From contig NZ_JAGQEE010000003.1 in the NCBI RefSeq assembly GCF_018304945.1, forward strand, positions 62,001-126,000: a DNA stretch of 64,000 nucleotides, written 5' to 3'. This DNA comes from Collimonas humicola (GTDB lineage Bacteria > Pseudomonadota > Gammaproteobacteria > Burkholderiales > Burkholderiaceae_D). The position numbers and the translations under genes were made by a program. Shown one piece after another: positions 3,108-63,705 of the stretch. Below the pieces are notes generated by a model, which was given only the letters and a program-made list of their open reading frames with translations, was not told where the DNA came from and did no database searches. Each line of letters begins with the position of its first letter. Within the stretch, counting starts at the first letter, position 1.

Positions 3108-3704
3108 CTACAGACTACCCTTGGTCGAAGGAATCGTCCCGGCGGAACGCGCATCCAGCTCAGCGGCCATGCGCAGCGCCCGGCCAAACGCCTTGAAGAC
3201 GGTTTCGCATTGATGGTGGGCATTCTCGCCGCGCAGGTTGTCGATATGCAAAGACACCAGGGCGTGGTTGACGAAGCCCTGGAAAAATTCGTGGGTCAGG
3301 TCGACGTCGAAGCCGCCTATCATCGCGCGCTTGAACGGCACGTGGAATTCGAGTCCGGGACGGCCGGAGAAATCGATGACAACGCGCGACAAGGCTTCAT
3401 CCAGCGGCACATAGGCATGGCCGTAGCGGCGAATGCCCTTCTTGTCGCCGATCGCCTTGGCGAACGCTTGCCCCAAGGTAATGCCGACGTCCTCCACGGT
3501 GTGGTGGGCGTCGATATGCAAGTCGCCGTTGGCTTCGATATCCAGGTCGATCAGGCCATGCCGCGCAATCTGGTCCAGCATATGGTCCAGAAAGGGCACG
3601 CCGGTATTCAGTTTTTGCTGGCCGCTGCCATCCAGATTGATGGAGACGCGGATTTGCGTCTCGTTGGTGTTGCGGGTGATCGATGCTGTTCGAGGCGTAG
3701 ACAT
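3108..3704 (-). CDS. hisB: Imidazoleglycerol-phosphate dehydratase
   Basis: Dehydrates imidazole glycerol phosphate to imidazole acetol phosphate. The 198-residue monofunctional form (no phosphatase domain) carries the Mn-binding histidine motifs [23 protein letters not shown] and [17 protein letters not shown]. The start at [20 protein letters not shown] fits the family length. The 196 bases upstream (3705-3900), up to the methyltransferase stop, hold no gene and may carry a separate promoter for hisB. Confidence 0.96.
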
Positions 3705-3900
3705 GTTGAGCTTGAGACCAATTTACGATGTGGTGACGCACACGGCGCCATGGAGGTAATGCTAAATAGTACAGCTTCTCCGTTATTGAAGCATGGTAGG
3801 CGCAGCCTTTTGAGTCGCATCGCCATTTTACCGGCTTTTTCCGGCTTTCCTGTCGAGAGCCGCCTTGATAATCTGTATCAGCGTTGCTTTTCTCGGAATT

Positions 3901-56624: not shown

Positions 56625-58064
56625 TCACTCCGTGTTTGCGCTGTCGCCGCCGGCAAACCAGGCCGGCGCCAGCTGGCCGAGGCGGCCGTGCGCGCCGATG
56701 GTGTAATGCAGCCAGCCGCGGATGTAATCGCAGGCGCTGCGGCCGCGCGCCAGCACTTCATGATGGCAGCCGCCGCCGCACATATAGCGCGCCCAGCAGG
56801 AATTGCAGGGCTGCTGCCGGTGTACGTGGCGTTGCTCCAGCCAGACGGTCTGGCGGCCGGCGTCGACGCCGGCGGCAAGATCGCCCATCCTGCCGGCCGC
56901 ATCGCCGACAAAGCGATGGCAGGCCGAAAGTTCACCTTCGGCGGAAACGCCGAAATAGCCGGCGCCGGCGCCGCAGGGATAAGGACGATGCGTGCCGCGC
57001 TGAATTTCACGCAGGGCGTTTTGCATGTTCATGAAAGGGTAACGCTGCCCCAGCATGACATGCTGTTCAAACGCCAGGCCGCAGGCGATCATTCCCTGCA
57101 ACATGTCTTCCATATCCTCCGGTCCCATTTCCGCCTGTCCGTTGGAGGCGCGCAATAGCGGCGAAAAGCCGACGCTATGGAAATCCATGCCGATAAATAA
57201 ATCGAGCGTGCGCGGCAGGTTCAGATTGAAGGGCGTGACGGTCACCCGCGCCGATACCTGCATCCGGCGCTGCCGTTCCAGCAGCGGCGCGACACGTTCG
57301 ATGATCTGGTCGAAAGAGCCTTTGCCGCCTTTGAACGGCCGCAAGCGGTTGTGCTGCTCGGCCGGGCCATCCAGGCTGACGGTCACGGCAAAACCGTGCT
57401 CCTCGAAAAAATCGGCATCGTCCGCTTGCAAGAGACTGCCATTGGTCGTGATCGAAAAGCGGCAATCGACTGCGCGTTGCCCGGCCTGTTCCTGCGCGTA
57501 GCGGGTGACGGCGCGCAGCGCCTGGCGATTCGCCAGCGGCTCGCCGCCCATGAAGGCCAGGTTGACCTTGGCGCCGGGCGCGGCCTTGGCCAGCAGCAGG
57601 TCGACGGCTTGCCTGGCCGTCTCCAGTTCCATGTTCTTTGCTTTGCCGCCAAACTCGCCCTGCTGCGCGTAACAGTAGGTGCATCCCAGATTGCATTTTT
57701 GTGCAATCGCCAGAGACAAGGCGTGCACCGGCGGCGCGGCCAGCGGCGTATCGTCAATCAAGGGCGCCAGCTGCAAGCCGCTGCTCGCGATCAAGCCTTG
57801 CACGACGGCGTCGTCCATGCCATCCAGCGCGGTCCTGAATTCGGCCGCCAGTGCGGGCGGCAAATGGAATAGACGACTGCCGTTCACCACCAGCAGCTGT
57901 GCGCCGTGCGCATCTTCGATCAGATGGGCGTCGCGTTGCCGCGGCCGTGAAGCCTCGACGATACACGCTGCCAGCGCCGGGGCCATGCCGGCCCCCGACG
58001 CAGCAGCGGCCAATGCCGCGGGAATCCGGCCGGCATCCTGCAGCGCCGCCTGGTCAAGCTTCAT
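56625..58064 (-). CDS. Radical SAM/SPASM maturase, QhpD-like
   Basis: A 479-residue radical SAM enzyme. The cluster cysteines C124, C128 and C131 are in IAQKCNLGCTYCYAQQGEFGG. The AdoMet motif is LAFMGGEPLANRQAL, and the sheet motif FSITTNGSLL follows. The C-terminal SPASM domain has cysteines in RPYPCGAGAGYFGVSAEGELSACHRF and QQPCNSCWARYMCGGGCHHEV. The CNSCWARYMCGGGC pattern is close to QhpD, which makes thioether links in quinohemoprotein amine dehydrogenase. About 110 N-terminal residues may bind the substrate. ATGs at 58064 and 58070 are possible; the first has a better-spaced GGGA. It overlaps the upstream gene. Confidence 0.87.
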   Translation of the reverse strand: MKLDQAALQDAGRIPAALAAAASGAGMAPALAACIVEASRPRQRDAHLIEDAHGAQLLVVNGSRLFHLPPALAAEFRTALDGMDDAVVQGLIASSGLQLAPLIDDTPLAAPPVHALSLAIAQKCNLGCTYCYAQQGEFGGKAKNMELETARQAVDLLLAKAAPGAKVNLAFMGGEPLANRQALRAVTRYAQEQAGQRAVDCRFSITTNGSLLQADDADFFEEHGFAVTVSLDGPAEQHNRLRPFKGGKGSFDQIIERVAPLLERQRRMQVSARVTVTPFNLNLPRTLDLFIGMDFHSVGFSPLLRASNGQAEMGPEDMEDMLQGMIACGLAFEQHVMLGQRYPFMNMQNALREIQRGTHRPYPCGAGAGYFGVSAEGELSACHRFVGDAAGRMGDLAAGVDAGRQTVWLEQRHVHRQQPCNSCWARYMCGGGCHHEVLARGRSACDYIRGWLHYTIGAHGRLGQLAPAWFAGGDSANTE

Positions 58065-58878
58065 CGGCATCTTTCCCGCGGATGACGAACTGCAGATCCT
58101 CTTGCCAGGATTTGAACAAGTCATCGTAGGACCACAGACGGGTATCGACCCGATTATCCGGAATGTAAGTACCGGTGCGTTTCTTTGCAAACCACATATC
58201 GCCCTTGGAAAGACCGTCCTGGCCCGGCTCCACGTTCACATAGTCCGGACGCGACGCAGCCCAGTAATAGCAGGCGCATTCGCGATAGTCGTTTTGCCAG
58301 GGCGCGCACAAGCCTTGGGTCAGCTCCCCCGGTTGCAGCATGTCGGTATTGATGGCGGCGGTTTCGTCCTCAAAGAAGCGGCGCATGGTCAGGTTGACCT
58401 TCAGCGTTTCGGTTTGCGACGTCACCAGCACTTCATCGGTGGCATTGGCGTAGGTGGTGAACTCGCACTCGACCACCTGTCCCTGCAGGTGCATGATGCG
58501 GGCAAATGAATTCGACCATTCCATGAACGAGACCGCATTCGGGTTGGCGGCGCTGGCCAGTGTGCCGGACGAGCCGTTCGGCATGACCGGGCCGCTGGTG
58601 GCAACCATGGTGCCAACATCCAGGCCGGCAAAACGCAGCAGCCGGCGTGTCGCCAGGTGCTGGAATTTCGGCTCGGCTTCGACCACATAGTTGTTGTTCT
58701 CGACCAAGGTAATGCCTTCGAAAGCGCGCCGCCACAGATTCCGGAAATCGAATTCCAGCCCCGGGAAGCAGTTGGAGATCGCGCTGCGCGGCAGCACCGA
58801 GGCGGGATTTCCGGCGCCGCGATGATGGATTTGCGCCGTCAGGTTGTTGGCGCGTATCGTCATGTTTTTACCGGACAT
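58054..58878 (-). CDS. C-terminal-type part of a LodA/GoxA-like CTQ oxidase, as a separate gene
   Basis: A 274-residue protein. Its motifs match the cofactor-bearing half of LodA-like oxidases: SAISNCFPGLEFDFRNLWRR with C37, and GELTQGLCAPWQNDYREC with W194, then ACYYWAASRPDYVN. In LodA-type enzymes a cysteine before FPGIE and a tryptophan in PWQxD form cysteine tryptophylquinone, so C37 and W194 are the candidate pair; C191, C201 and C203 lie close to W194. A GGAGG site precedes the ATG at 58878. It overlaps the upstream gene by 11 bases and the radical SAM gene downstream. Oxidation of an amino acid with release of H2O2 is the family activity. Confidence 0.7.
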   Translation of the reverse strand: MSGKNMTIRANNLTAQIHHRGAGNPASVLPRSAISNCFPGLEFDFRNLWRRAFEGITLVENNNYVVEAEPKFQHLATRRLLRFAGLDVGTMVATSGPVMPNGSSGTLASAANPNAVSFMEWSNSFARIMHLQGQVVECEFTTYANATDEVLVTSQTETLKVNLTMRRFFEDETAAINTDMLQPGELTQGLCAPWQNDYRECACYYWAASRPDYVNVEPGQDGLSKGDMWFAKKRTGTYIPDNRVDTRLWSYDDLFKSWQEDLQFVIRGKDADEA

Positions 58879-60283
58879 TTTTGCCTCCGTCTGGATTGGT
58901 TTGGCCGAACATCGCATTGCGGGCGGCCTTGATCACCATGTTGATGTGGCGCCGGGTCAGGGTCAGGCTGCGGCCGTCGGCGCCGCGCATCAGGGCCGGC
59001 ATCTTGCGCAGCCCTTCCGACGTCAGGTCGCCGATTTCCTCAGGCTGGCGCAAAACCTTGGCGAACCATGGCGCGCCGCCGGCGCTCAAGGTGCTGAATA
59101 CCCGCTCATGCAAGGCGCGCAAGGCGAGATTGTCGACGATGGATGGAGCTGCAATCGGTTCGTAGTACCGTTCGAAATCGGCGCTGTTTTGCCGCACCAT
59201 GGTGCTGGCCACGTTCAATTGCCCATTGAATGGATTGCCGTTCATCACGGCTGAATTCATCAGGCGCACGGTCTCCAGGGCGCGTAGCACGATTTCGGTT
59301 GCGGCGTCGAGCGAAACGCTTTCTTCCGCCACTTCCGGTCCGTACAGGATTTGCTCCATTTCGTCCGACACCACCCGGATCGGCAGCGTGTCGGGAGCGA
59401 ACGCCGGCGGCCCGGCGCCGATATAGCCGTGCGCCCATAGCTGGCTGCCATCCTTGCGCGTCAAGCCGATGCGCGCCACGCCGTCGCATTCGTCGTCAAG
59501 GTAGCCCCAGCTGACCTGGTTGCCGTCCTTGTCGGCGTAGCCGGCGTAGATGCCGGCCGGGTTGGTCAGGGTCGGGCCTGTGCTTTCTGTGTAGTTCAGC
59601 CAGTCGCCTTTCTTTTCGTCGTACAGCACCAGGTGTTCGTGATCGATCACCGGATCGTCGTGCAGCTTCAGGTCGTGGTACGATTCGCGCCGTTTCATCC
59701 TGGTGCCGTACACAATCCCGGCTGCCGGCGTGTAGCGCAGCCGGATTTCCGGGAATTGCGCGCTCGGCTTGATGAACTGGATATAGCCAAGCGGCAGCTT
59801 CTTGCGCGGATGGAAATTTGGGCAGTGGCCTTCCATCGCATGGCGCTGATGGTCTTTCAGGGTATGCAGGCTGGCGTGGATCTTGTCGTCCTTGTTATTG
59901 GTGCGGCGGTAGATCTTGATGTTGCCCAGCTCGATATCCCAATGCAGCGCGGTCAGGTCCAGGTTTTCCGCTTGCAGCAGGGCCAGCGTCAGTGGCTGCA
60001 GTTCTTCCGGCGATTCGCTGGTGCGCGCATAGACTTCCAGGAAAGGCGCGACCGGGCGGATTTTTTTATTTTCGTCCTTGAAGCGGATGGTTTCCGGCAC
60101 ATAGCAGCGCAGGATTTCGCCGCTCGCCGGATCGACGTCAAAGCTCGGGCGCGGTACGATGCGGCGGTAGTCAAACGGCTGATCGGGATTGACTTCCAGG
60201 TCAAACGCTTCCAGCGGCGTCGCTGCGGCCCCCAAGCGTCCGATGGCGATGGGCGGCAGGATGCGGAGTTCTAAGATCGGCAT
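58868..60283 (-). CDS. N-terminal-type part of a LodA/GoxA-like oxidase, as a separate gene
   Basis: A 471-residue cytosolic-looking protein, with no signal peptide. The start ELRILPPIAIGRLGAAATPLEAFDLEV resembles the IHPAIGIARVGNS start of LodA-like oxidases. The region FDYRRIVPRPSFDVD, then IRFKDENKKIRPVAPFLEVYAR and LHWDIELGNIKIY, follows the same family order. It stops before the cofactor-bearing motifs, which lie in the next gene, overlapping by 11 bases. Together they add up to about 745 residues, near the length of a complete LodA. AGGAG precedes the ATG. The frame is intact, so this looks like a real two-subunit form rather than a broken gene. Confidence 0.65.
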   Translation of the reverse strand: MPILELRILPPIAIGRLGAAATPLEAFDLEVNPDQPFDYRRIVPRPSFDVDPASGEILRCYVPETIRFKDENKKIRPVAPFLEVYARTSESPEELQPLTLALLQAENLDLTALHWDIELGNIKIYRRTNNKDDKIHASLHTLKDHQRHAMEGHCPNFHPRKKLPLGYIQFIKPSAQFPEIRLRYTPAAGIVYGTRMKRRESYHDLKLHDDPVIDHEHLVLYDEKKGDWLNYTESTGPTLTNPAGIYAGYADKDGNQVSWGYLDDECDGVARIGLTRKDGSQLWAHGYIGAGPPAFAPDTLPIRVVSDEMEQILYGPEVAEESVSLDAATEIVLRALETVRLMNSAVMNGNPFNGQLNVASTMVRQNSADFERYYEPIAAPSIVDNLALRALHERVFSTLSAGGAPWFAKVLRQPEEIGDLTSEGLRKMPALMRGADGRSLTLTRRHINMVIKAARNAMFGQTNPDGGKNVR

Positions 60284-60292
60284 GACGGGCTC

Positions 60293-61825
60293 CTAAAGTA
60301 AGGCGGGATCGATGCTGCCGGACAGGATGCGCTTCGCAATCGCGATCATGCTTTTATCCGCTTCGCGCAAGCTGTGCAGGTAGGCATGCCTGGCCGGGCT
60401 GCTGGTCGCCAGCAGGGCTGCAATCAGGCCCTCGGAAGCGGTGAGCAGGTCGAGATGGCCGATCCAGCGGTCGGCTTCCCCGAACGGGCTGTTCAGCGTG
60501 TAGGGCATCTGGAATGGCGGACCGGCGAATCCCGCATCGGGATCCGTCGCCGAAACCGGCGACTGCATCAGGATTTCCGAGATGGCGCGCAGGTTGTACA
60601 TTTCTCCGAACGTGGCATTCACGATCGTGCCGCGCGGCGTGATCAATCCCGCGGCATTCAAGCCGCCGTACAGCGTAAAGCTGTGGATCAGATAGGTCAG
60701 CAGCATGCGATAGCGCACATTGTGCAGGGTCGCCCACAGCGCCGATTCCGGATCGGTGATCGCCGTGGCCGGCGTGCCCCCTTGTTCCGGCTCTTCGTCG
60801 GTATCGAGCGACACATAGGGGTTGATCGCCACGGGACGCGACGCACTCCATGCCCCGTGGCCGGCCTTGAGCGCAGCGCCGATGTCAGGGTAGGAGCTCG
60901 CCCATGCATCAGCCAGGAAATCGTCCGGGCGCGCATCGTTCCACGCTTCCAGGCTGCAGGGTTGATTGTTCTGCGCCGCGCGCATTTCAACGTACACGCG
61001 CAAGAACCGCACAAAATGCGATGGTTCCGATCCGTGCGGAGCTTCCCCTTGCTTGGCGATTGCCTTCAAGGCGTTCACCGCATCGTCGCGGCAAGTCACC
61101 GGGACCACCAGCACGTCGGGCGTCTTGCCCACGCTCCTGCCTTCGCTGTTGCCGCGGTTGCCGCCCTGGTAGCCACGTCCCCATTCGGCGAAATTGGCCT
61201 GGCATGAAAAAGTATCGGGCTGGAATACGTAATCGGGCAAATACAGCGGATCTTCCACCAGCGGAATCAGCGTGTCGAATAATTCCGCGACCTGGTGCGG
61301 GTTCGAAGTCTGGGTGGCGACCCGCGCCCTGATTTCATCGCCCAGGGCGCCGCCATTCCAGCCCACGGCCGCTTCCGTGTACACATACTTGGCCAGCGAA
61401 TCCAGGGTCAGCGGCTGCAGCATGAACGGAAACGGGTAAAACGGCACATCCCACGGGTAATCTTCACGCTCGAAGTGCAGCGGCGCGCCAATCAGCCGCA
61501 GCACATTCTGCACCGAGATCAAATGCCCCATCTCTTCCTTGGCGATGCCGAGAATCACCTCTTGCCAGTTGCGCACCATGTCGCGAAACACCGGCGGCAC
61601 CTGAGGCCCGCCCAGGGAATAGGCCGCGTACAGGTACTGCACCATCAGGCAGTGTTCTATTTCCGCATCGATTGAAAGCAGGTAGGCGACATAGTCGCGT
61701 GGCGAGAATTCAAGATTGAGCAAGAATTCGCTGGATCCGTCTTGCGCGGTCAGGGCCCGTGGCGCGGTACGGGGCAACGCCGTCGCTCCGGCGCCAAGAT
61801 GACGCCGTATTTGTGAAGCTCGCAT
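60293..61825 (-). CDS. Ferritin-like protein of the VioB-domain family
   Basis: A 510-residue protein with a ferritin-like four-helix domain related to the C-terminal part of VioB: LLSIDAEIEHCLMVQYLYAAYSLGG near residue 55 and VILGIAKEEMGHLISVQNVLRLIGAP near residue 90. These supply glutamates and a histidine (E, EExxH) for a di-iron-like site. The C-terminal 350 residues are less recognisable. It is the first gene of the operon, with GAGGAGA before the ATG at 61825, and ends nine bases before the next ATG. It could be an oxidase acting with the LodA-like pair or a detoxifier of its H2O2. No violacein genes are present. Confidence 0.75.
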   Translation of the reverse strand: MRASQIRRHLGAGATALPRTAPRALTAQDGSSEFLLNLEFSPRDYVAYLLSIDAEIEHCLMVQYLYAAYSLGGPQVPPVFRDMVRNWQEVILGIAKEEMGHLISVQNVLRLIGAPLHFEREDYPWDVPFYPFPFMLQPLTLDSLAKYVYTEAAVGWNGGALGDEIRARVATQTSNPHQVAELFDTLIPLVEDPLYLPDYVFQPDTFSCQANFAEWGRGYQGGNRGNSEGRSVGKTPDVLVVPVTCRDDAVNALKAIAKQGEAPHGSEPSHFVRFLRVYVEMRAAQNNQPCSLEAWNDARPDDFLADAWASSYPDIGAALKAGHGAWSASRPVAINPYVSLDTDEEPEQGGTPATAITDPESALWATLHNVRYRMLLTYLIHSFTLYGGLNAAGLITPRGTIVNATFGEMYNLRAISEILMQSPVSATDPDAGFAGPPFQMPYTLNSPFGEADRWIGHLDLLTASEGLIAALLATSSPARHAYLHSLREADKSMIAIAKRILSGSIDPALL

Positions 61826-62307
61826 TGTTTCTCCTCGCATCAACTTCGTTAAGAAAGATAAGGCTTGTGAAGACAAAGGAATACACGTTACTGCCTGGAG
61901 TTCCGGCAATGCTGAGACGGCGATACAGTCCGCGACCGCAACGGCGGCGGCTTGCCAAGATGCTTATACGACAGCCAGGCTTGTTCTGAAACATCAAGGT
62001 GAAGCAGGATTCAAGCGGGAAGACGGGGCGAGATATTTATTTTTTTCCAACGTTCGCTATGCATATCTGCTGCTCCGCAAACATGAAGTCCGCAGCAAGA
62101 TTGTTCCTCAATTCATATTTGAACAACTGTCAAAATTGATAGGATTTACGCAAAGCGGTGAGAACAGTCCCGCGGCGCGAAACAGATCGCTGCCGATCCA
62201 CGCGCGCCGGGCTTTGCGGAATCGTGCCAGCCGGTTGCTGCCTGAGCGCGGCAGCAACGGCTGGATCAACGGGATACGGTCAACTACGCAGGCAAAGGCA
62301 CTTCACC
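61826..62307. other. Intergenic region between the P450 gene and the quinoprotein operon
   Basis: No credible gene is seen on either strand. The left 330 bases are AT-richer and should carry the promoter of the ferritin-like gene's operon. The right part holds the strong hairpin described separately. Confidence 0.5.
62227..62264. terminator. Strong hairpin downstream of the P450 gene
   Basis: CCAGCC-G-GTTGCTGCC pairs with GGCAGCAAC-GGCTGG: 15 base pairs with one bulged G and a seven-base loop. It lies 44 bases beyond the P450 stop. No T-run follows on the minus strand, so it may slow transcription, protect the 3' end, or be a repeat element. Confidence 0.5.
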
Positions 62308-63424
62308 TCATTGCCGGACGACTTTGACCTGGAAGACGCCAAGCAGGCCGGCGAGCGGCACTTCAGCCGTTGTTTGCCGCGGACTGACGGCAAGGCCGTC
62401 GTTGCGCAGGATATCGAGCAGCCTTTCGGCCAGGGGCATCACCATATGCTGTCCCCAGCAGCGTTCGGAGGTGTGGCCGAAAGGAAGGTAGCCGGGCTGC
62501 TCGCCGGGGTTGATGCTATCCCATCGTTCGGGACGGAACTCATCGGCGTCGTCCCAGAGTGCAGGGTCGCGGTGGCTGAGAAGCGGCAGGATCAGGACAT
62601 CGTCGTTGGGACCGATCCGGGAATCGAGGGCGGCGTACTCGGGAGATGCGTTCCTCAAGATGTTCCAGGACGGCGGCAGCAGCCGCAGGGCCTCATACAG
62701 GATGTTGCGGTTCGAGGTTTCTTTGTCGAATGGCGATCCGAGCCAGAGCGCGTTGGCGACGAGCGTGGAGATGGTGAAGCAGACTGGGGCGGCTGTGCGG
62801 CGATACATTCCCATGGCATAGCGACGGTCGTTGTAGGTCGAGGCGCCGGCGGTGAGTTTCGCGATGGCGGATGCTTCCGGCTGCAGCCTGACCGATGGCG
62901 CCGCACCAGCGGCGATGAGCGCCCAAGTCAGCTTGGGCGTCAGCTCCAATATGCGGTCCATGAGAATGCGCAGCCGGTAGGGGTCGCCGCCGAGAACAAG
63001 ATCGCGCAAGTAAACGTGCCCGACGTGCGGCCATTCTCCGGAAAGATCGACCGTTTCGGATACGGGCTTTTTCAATGCAGCCCGTACATCGCTGCCGATC
63101 GCTTGCATCAGTTTTAGAGCGTCGGCGCGGGGAATGGAGCGCCCGTGAAGGGGCTTGAATGTCGGACGCTCGAATTCGGTGGCCGGCCTGGCGCTGAGGA
63201 TCTGGTGGGTCAATGCGGTCCCGGCGACGCCGACGGTGTTCTCATCCAGCCGGAATACGTCCTCGCCGCGATGATCGCGCAGGAGCGCTTGGAGCCTCGG
63301 TGTAAAAACGGTGGCTCGGATGTGTTTGCCAGTACTTGGCATCGATGCTCTCCATGGGACGGAGGCCCGCGTCCGGCGGGCCGTTCAGGGCTTCACCGAA
63401 CGCGGTTGGAAGCTCCAACCGCAT
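62308..63424 (-). pseudogene. Cytochrome P450 for the AWYIWY peptide, apparently frameshifted at a T5 run
   Basis: A P450 with the ExxR motif in LYEALRLLPPSWNILR, the PERW region DEFRPERWDSIN, and the haem-cysteine loop LPFGHTSERCWGQ. The continuous frame from the ATG at 63342 gives 344 residues, short for a P450. In another frame, from the ATG at 63424, comes LNGPPDAGLRPMESIDAKYWQTHPSHRF, which reads as the missing N-terminus. The frames join at five T (plus-strand 63304-63308): with one T fewer the protein runs HRFTPRLQALLRDH, giving 371 residues. That version starts 29 bases after the precursor stop. Homopolymer sequencing error, real mutation, or slippage are all possible. The I-helix has APVCFT in place of AGxxT. 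Confidence 0.8.
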
Positions 63425-63453
63425 CCCTATGAATCAGGTGATGGCTTGCAGGA

Positions 63454-63534
63454 TCAATACCAGATGTACCAAGCGTATGCCTTCAGGCTTTTTGGGCGGG
63501 TCAGCATATTTTTAAGAGTGAAAAGAATTTTCAT
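63454..63534 (-). CDS. Atropopeptide (tryptorubin-like) RiPP precursor
   Basis: A 26-residue peptide that begins MKILFTLKN, continues through a basic stretch RPKSLKAY and ends with AWYIWY at the stop codon. AWYIWY is the linear sequence of tryptorubin A, a ribosomal peptide whose tryptophans and tyrosines are cross-linked by one P450 (atropopeptide family, known to me from actinobacteria). A good ribosome-binding site, GGAAGG, lies eight bases before the ATG at 63532-63534. The P450 gene follows at once on the same strand. The last six residues would be the core and the first 20 the leader. No protease or exporter gene is visible. Peptides this short are usually missed by gene finders. Confidence 0.88.
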   Translation of the reverse strand: MKILFTLKNMLTRPKSLKAYAWYIWY

Positions 63535-63705
63535 GAGTAGCACCTTCCTTTGATTGTGGACTGCCTTGTGGGCAGCATGGAATGCTCAAGTAGCATGGGT
63601 TTTGCCATCGACGGCATGAGGGACATGTTGCAATCCGGATCATTTCCGCCGTGTGGATGCTATCCCACAATCAAGTCAAATGGATAGTGCAGGCGCTTCA
63701 ATTAT

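Follow-up and report, generated by a model that had tools for sequence, protein, structure and literature searches.

The precursor gene and its P450

The window, by which we mean the whole 64,000-nucleotide stretch of DNA analysed here, carries on its minus strand a short frame (63454..63534) of 26 codons and a stop, translating as MKILFTLKNMLTRPKSLKAYAWYIWY-stop, and, on the same strand 111 nt beyond that stop, a gene for a cytochrome P450 of 344 residues, the presumed macrocyclase (62308..63342; Pfam p450, 1.4e-13). The short peptide closes with AWYIWY directly before the stop codon (63457-63474), which is also the core of tryptorubin A. A ribosome-binding site, AAGGAAGG (63543..63550, minus strand), stands 8 nt before the ATG and is identical in the genomes G011 and G007 of the genus; an alternative in-frame GTG lies 9 nt upstream of the ATG, at which the family model begins. 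This is the arrangement that the initial annotation had reported, a 26-codon frame with a ribosome-binding site terminating in AWYIWY and a P450 downstream on the same strand, and both parts of it are confirmed. Its identification of the frame as a tryptorubin-type precursor, with a chance match to the core very unlikely, is substantiated by the NCBIfam model NF038372 (tryptorubin_fam, 'tryptorubin family RiPP precursor'), which aligns over all 26 positions with a score of 54 bits, the cut-off being 33, and with an E value of 1.2e-12 when the whole window genome is searched, by the back-translated core plus stop, for which the window has a single occurrence and 100 shuffles have none, and by the P450 homology, tree and co-occurrence described below.

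The pair also agrees with the description of atropopeptide loci in the main text of PMC11450843. Precursors there are 10-40 residues long and end in the core, whose second position is Trp and behind which the stop codon comes at once; KSLK, or one of the variants listed there, occupies alignment positions 17-20. Here, 26 residues end in A-W-Y-I-W-Y and the stop, and the leader MKILFTLKNMLTRPKSLKAY (within 63454..63534, minus strand) holds the KSLK recognition motif at its residues 15-18 (63481..63492), counted without alignment. The precursor logo of that main text has two rarely filled positions, 7-8. As for the adjacent P450 of the atropopeptide-modifying family, the one in the window shares ~60-96% identity with P450s preceded by precursors of this kind, and its position is inside their tree.

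Upstream of the precursor the DNA is AT-rich, as had been noted, with 45.6% GC in 250 bases vs 61.6% for the window, while the P450 gene itself has 62.8%. A promoter and terminator scan (sigma-70) found neither a promoter-like site nor a terminator. In the P450, the haem-ligand motif reads FGHTSERCWG (C295) and the ExxR motif is formed by E217 and R220, all three residues being invariant across 33 family members. Truncation of the enzyme can be ruled out, its relatives spanning 332-379 residues, a range that leaves out one relative cut by a contig end and two dropped rows. Its predicted structure, modelled alone, has a mean pLDDT of 82.8. Among the 50 Foldseek matches listed, we find generic P450s (query TM 0.48-0.62, 12-18% identity) and therefore no close solved relative, and among the matches listed in sequence searches of the PDB, only the C-terminal part of the P450 was matched.

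Distribution and relatives

What can be learned from the distribution of the two genes? Of the 15 genomes of the genus, four have a match to the precursor model, each above the cut-off; the 14 control genomes have none. The P450 (E 1e-20) occurs in the same four and in none of the other 290 of the 294 genomes sampled from the family, so that the peptide is kept wherever the P450 is kept, as the initial annotation required of a true pair. In wider samples the precursor was found once in 399 genomes of the order and once in 398 of the phylum, each time in the window's own genome; these samples are sparse, and known named relatives are absent from them. All four P450 reading frames are intact, and the core AWYIWY is identical in the four carriers. 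In G003, the leader differs at 8 of 20 positions and the core at 0 of 6, the P450 being 79-80% identical. Core and KSLK stay unchanged across the carriers while leaders and synonymous codon positions drift. A weak precursor-model match in another genome (G107:C1:4650260-4650328; L006, L011; KLLFSLKNHIGDACSLKKYANYI...), at 24.2 bits below the cut-off, is probably due to chance; it has no Trp, and G107 has no P450 relative at E 1e-20.

Outside the genus, a seven-row P450 alignment was searched against one genome per species (84,980 species), which yielded 88 confirmed relatives. Taking on 80 of these 88, and adding the four loci of the genus and three plasmid loci, gave 87 P450s, or 85 after two partial or broken ones were dropped. 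Upstream of 82 of the 85 lies a KSLK-type precursor with a Trp-containing C-terminus; the remaining three family P450s (L036, L082, L084) have no recognisable KSLK/Trp precursor in the flanks that were fetched. The precursor-bearing loci include the jum contig of S. jumonjinensis (L092) and the sca contig of Embleya scabrispora (L089), both of which were expressed in PMC11450843 according to its main text. The pair is also present in Paraburkholderia, Burkholderia, Dyella and Luteibacter, and AWYIWY is the core in 11 of 20 pseudomonadotal loci, counting those of the window genus, compared with 16 of 62 from actinobacteria. The betaproteobacterial relatives, as named in their records, are Paraburkholderia sp. 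BL21I4N1 (L091), with the core AWYIWY, and Burkholderia WS-FJ9 (L034), with AWYLWY; their P450s are 69 and 71% identical to that of the window, respectively. Identity to the actinobacterial P450s compared is 60-79%, the most similar among the 80 relatives taken on being that of Streptomyces sp. ADI95-17 (79%).

In Xanthomonas sp. GPE 39, two tandem precursors with the cores SWPHWY and AWEGYISY (L098:3496-3576, 3672-3758) precede one P450; two-precursor loci are mentioned in the main text of PMC11450843. In Xanthomonas cucurbitae (L030), an intact precursor stands before a P450 frame with one in-frame stop, a probable pseudogene or else a sequencing error.

Origin of the pair

A tree built from the 85 P450s has a branch (100/99) that separates off every one of the 20 pseudomonadotal rows, those of the window genus among them. 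The window P450 does not group away from the atropopeptide P450s, which the initial annotation had named as a refuting outcome. Within the pseudomonadotal part, the P450s of the window genus group with those of Dyella (99/92). The four rows of the genus hold together weakly (46/0), and a test marginally rejects (p 0.044) that the six betaproteobacterial P450s form a single clade. As to the host, the 16S region of the window genome shares 90.7% identity with the Paraburkholderia strain, against 85.3% with Dyella and 84.4% with Xanthomonas, with no 16S gene found in three of the seven genomes asked; these identities fit a betaproteobacterium near Burkholderiales.

The suggestion that the pair was probably acquired by transfer can be upheld in a weaker form. 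It is consistent with the pair's patchy presence in 4 of 15 genomes and with its differing surroundings, while the grouping of the P450 with pseudomonadotal ones speaks against the form in which an actinobacterial donor would have passed it recently to this strain: the P450 is not nested in the actinobacterial ones apart from the other pseudomonadotal P450s, and we reject that scenario. The tree lacks an outgroup and therefore does not give the direction of transfer. Together with the GC content of the P450, which is close to that of the window, it makes a transfer among Pseudomonadota plausible and leaves a recent actinobacterial gift unsupported. We thus regard the locus as an accessory element of the genus, within the pseudomonadotal branch of the family.

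Gene surroundings

The six upstream neighbours tested in the window genome comprise pirin, LysR and short-chain dehydrogenase genes, and none of the six belongs to a protease family. G007 has an M20-type peptidase gene (L008:4288-5490) ~3 kb before the precursor, and a matching frame points to the same gene in G011 (L009). These two genomes also share an upstream LysR gene, for which the remaining 13 genomes of the genus gave no match at E 1e-80.

Downstream of the pair, G000 and G011 have in common a block of ferritin-like, LodA-like and radical-SAM genes in the same order and on the same strand. In the window it extends over 56.6-61.9 kb and begins ~400 nt from the P450. The ferritin-like gene (60296-61909, minus strand), which comes before the rest of the block, is carried by three of the 15 genus genomes; it is absent from G007, and the copy in G003 (G003:C1:5478690-5480276) lies 2.65 Mb from the pair and contains two in-frame TGA codons. 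After it, 58057-60283 and 56628-58190 (minus strand) hold two overlapping frames and a neighbouring gene for a radical-SAM protein. One of the overlapping frames has 471 residues and no Pfam match, the other 287 residues and a LodA_C match that is weak; together they have the appearance of a split LodA-type oxidase, its N-terminal part being judged by eye. For the radical-SAM protein, the best model is that of the quinohemoprotein amine dehydrogenase maturase, at 306 bits where the cut-off is 453. The split LodA-like and the radical-SAM frames recur in G011. Radical-SAM maturation of a LodA-like enzyme would be unusual.

Predicted RNA structure between the two genes

In the gap between precursor and P450, three minus-strand hairpins can be drawn. 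Hairpin A, GCGGTTGGA-GCT-TCCAACCGC (63402..63422), comes after the precursor; in G007, a T-to-C change in one of its arms is matched by an A-to-G change in the other, and it lies outside the window's minimum-energy fold. Hairpin B, CCGCGTTCGGTG ... CGCCGGACGCGG (63367..63405), consists in the fold of 63325-63470 of 12 pairs and an inner three-pair stem. As the 3' arm of A overlaps the 5' arm of B, the two are mutually exclusive. In the predicted hairpin C (63347..63366), CTCC pairs with GGAG (63350-63353), the likely ribosome-binding site of the P450. The fold of 63325-63470 as a whole is better than those of 200 out of 200 shuffles (z -4.21), while the whole-gap fold of G003 is unremarkable (z -0.3).

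How general is this? The best stem was scored in 81 of the 82 precursor-P450 gaps, the one omitted being 7 nt long. A strong stem, defined as one for which at most 2 of 50 dinucleotide shuffles are as good, is present in 69 of the 81 gaps, in both phyla, where ~5 would be expected, a count that overstates independence because the loci are related; 12 gaps fail this limit, and in 55 not one shuffle is as good. Elsewhere in the loci, with gene calls from a rough rule of our own, the same limit is passed by 17 of 91 co-directional, 12 of 40 convergent and 5 of 25 divergent gaps. Measured against random windows of their own locus, 63 of the 81 gaps meet it. The signal is less marked in Pseudomonadota: among their 20 gaps, 16 pass against shuffles, the four failures all being Xanthomonas, and only 11 against random windows. 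On the tree, the trait requires eight changes. Stem sequences vary between clades while a stem is retained. A consensus of 13 related gaps has 14 pairs, and at four of these both partners have changed in at least one row, two Dyella rows being misaligned by eye. The arrangement CTCC/TTCC-N4-12-GGAG near the P450 start occurs in only 19 of 81 gaps, some of which come from close relatives, whereas simple shuffles would lead one to expect 1.0.

A search of the window with Rfam gathering thresholds gave 0 matches, and no study of an atropopeptide operon is among the literature matches listed for RiPP hairpins. The main texts of PMC11450843 and PMC12352619 do not mention an intergenic hairpin or a similar element. 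The main text of PMC11450843 does describe that inserting a ribosome-binding site before one atropopeptide P450 raised the yield 100-fold. We consider the chances about even that the atropopeptide operons of both phyla have in common an RNA element, located between precursor and P450, in which a strong hairpin is conserved but its sequence is not, and which in some members also pairs with the P450 ribosome-binding site. Such an element would keep the precursor in large excess over the enzyme, which would go some way towards explaining that gain. If functional, the shared hairpin would be a practical handle for raising yields.

Proposed pathway and alternatives

Taken together, the two genes, the family to which they belong, their joint occurrence and the constancy of core and KSLK make it very probable that this is a minimal atropopeptide biosynthetic locus, with a 26-residue ribosomal precursor and one dedicated P450 working as in tryptorubin. 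By analogy with tryptorubin, leader and KSLK motif would dock on the P450, which would draw its electrons from redox partners of the host encoded elsewhere and join Trp and Tyr residues of AWYIWY to one another by C-C and C-N bonds. The leader would then be taken off by a protease of the host, and an aminopeptidase may also remove the Ala. The intergenic hairpins would meanwhile hold P450 synthesis below that of the precursor. For the exact bridge pattern we assume the three bridges of tryptorubin.

The main text of PMC11450843 provides precedents for such a product. A precursor with a WYIWY core (LauA) and the family P450 alone gave tryptorubin B, the three-modification product; varsorubin B1, with one C-C and two C-N bonds, is four hydrogens below its linear core; and the full lau locus, in which a second P450 adds a fourth bond, gave 895.3760 and 824.3401. 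From varsorubin B1 and the lau masses we deduce that the values for the loss of four hydrogens are those expected for tryptorubin A and B. The computed [M+H]+ of AWYIWY is then 897.393, or 826.356 without Ala; for the loss of six hydrogens it is 895.377 and 824.340. Masses alone would not fix the bridge pattern.

The identity of the core does not prove tryptorubin A as the product, since both the pattern and the extent of bridging can vary on one and the same core (PMC11450843, main text). There is a considerable chance, somewhat short of even, that the locus makes another atropopeptide, with fewer or differently placed bridges or with the core trimmed by peptidases of the host to a tetra- or pentapeptide; this being a variant of the locus reading, the two probabilities overlap. 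In the work just cited, one P450 and one core gave two non-overlapping bridge patterns, and host trimming was seen; the main text of PMC12352619 knows of no atropopeptide reported from Pseudomonadota; and the identity of the window P450 to the actinobacterial ones compared, as given above, points the same way. Core, KSLK and the two-gene layout are, on the other hand, the same as in tryptorubin loci, and the jum and amyxirubin P450s, at only 59% identity, made the same product (PMC11450843, main text). That the downstream block belongs to the pathway and tailors the peptide we hold to be very unlikely: its order and strand are preserved in G011, but ~400 nt separate it from the P450, and in two of the four carriers, G003 and G007, it is not beside the pair, the surroundings of which vary.

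It is also quite unlikely that the pair is a decaying remnant of horizontal transfer from which no peptide is made. Such a remnant would suit the few carriers, their differing surroundings and the failure of the scan to find a promoter-like site, but the four intact P450 frames speak against it, as does the constancy of core and KSLK while leaders and synonymous positions drift. Short frames are common, and a chance match of one of them to the core, beside an unrelated P450, might be thought of as well; given the NF038372 score, the shuffles, the genome-wide E value, the conservation and the precursors beside 82 of 85 related P450s, we rule it out, its probability being negligible. Our analysis of the sequence thus provides good support for a genuine two-gene locus for a tryptorubin-like cross-linked peptide in a betaproteobacterium.

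Comparison with known systems

Among the systems closest to the window locus is the tryptorubin A/B locus of Streptomyces (trp BGC), which it resembles in core, KSLK leader motif and the combination of a precursor with one P450, and from which it differs in its betaproteobacterial host, in the pseudomonadotal branch of its P450 and in having a product that is only predicted. Among neighbouring P450 systems, the aminopyruvatide P450 ApyO (NF050147) is the best NCBIfam match of the window P450, over residues 212-312 only; at 56.6 bits against a cut-off of 525, membership in that family was rejected. The biarylitides (P450Blt) are likewise ribosomal peptides cross-linked by a P450, but arise from pentapeptide substrates and give tripeptides (PMC12352619, main text).

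The initial annotation took the family to be known only from actinobacteria and the locus to extend it to proteobacteria. This is out of date: the 2024 survey in PMC11450843 already reports loci from Xanthomonas and related Pseudomonadota in its main text, that of PMC12352619 (2025) used seven pseudomonadotal precursors, stating that no product had been reported from this phylum as of August 2025, and the pair turned up here in the four further genera named above. An atropopeptide rule is part of antiSMASH 8.0, as its paper states (PMC12230676). Since pairs from the same phylum have been reported, the window locus is a sound addition to a known family, not a first for that phylum. Titles and abstract openings among the literature matches listed contain no betaproteobacterial atropopeptide locus; such loci may nonetheless be among those in figure 3 or the supplementary material of PMC11450843.

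With the pseudomonadotal loci of Xanthomonas and related genera (PMC11450843 and PMC12352619, main texts), the window locus shares the P450 branch and the layout, its genus being set apart by the grouping with Dyella. Xanthomonas loci often come with a protease gene (PMC11450843, main text), of which there is none among the six upstream neighbours in the window. The Paraburkholderia and Burkholderia loci (L091, L034) have betaproteobacterial hosts, as does that of the window. The locus described here adds to the family a betaproteobacterial genus in which the tryptorubin core is conserved in four carriers, and it offers a natural pair for asking if P450s that are only distantly related cross-link one core identically.
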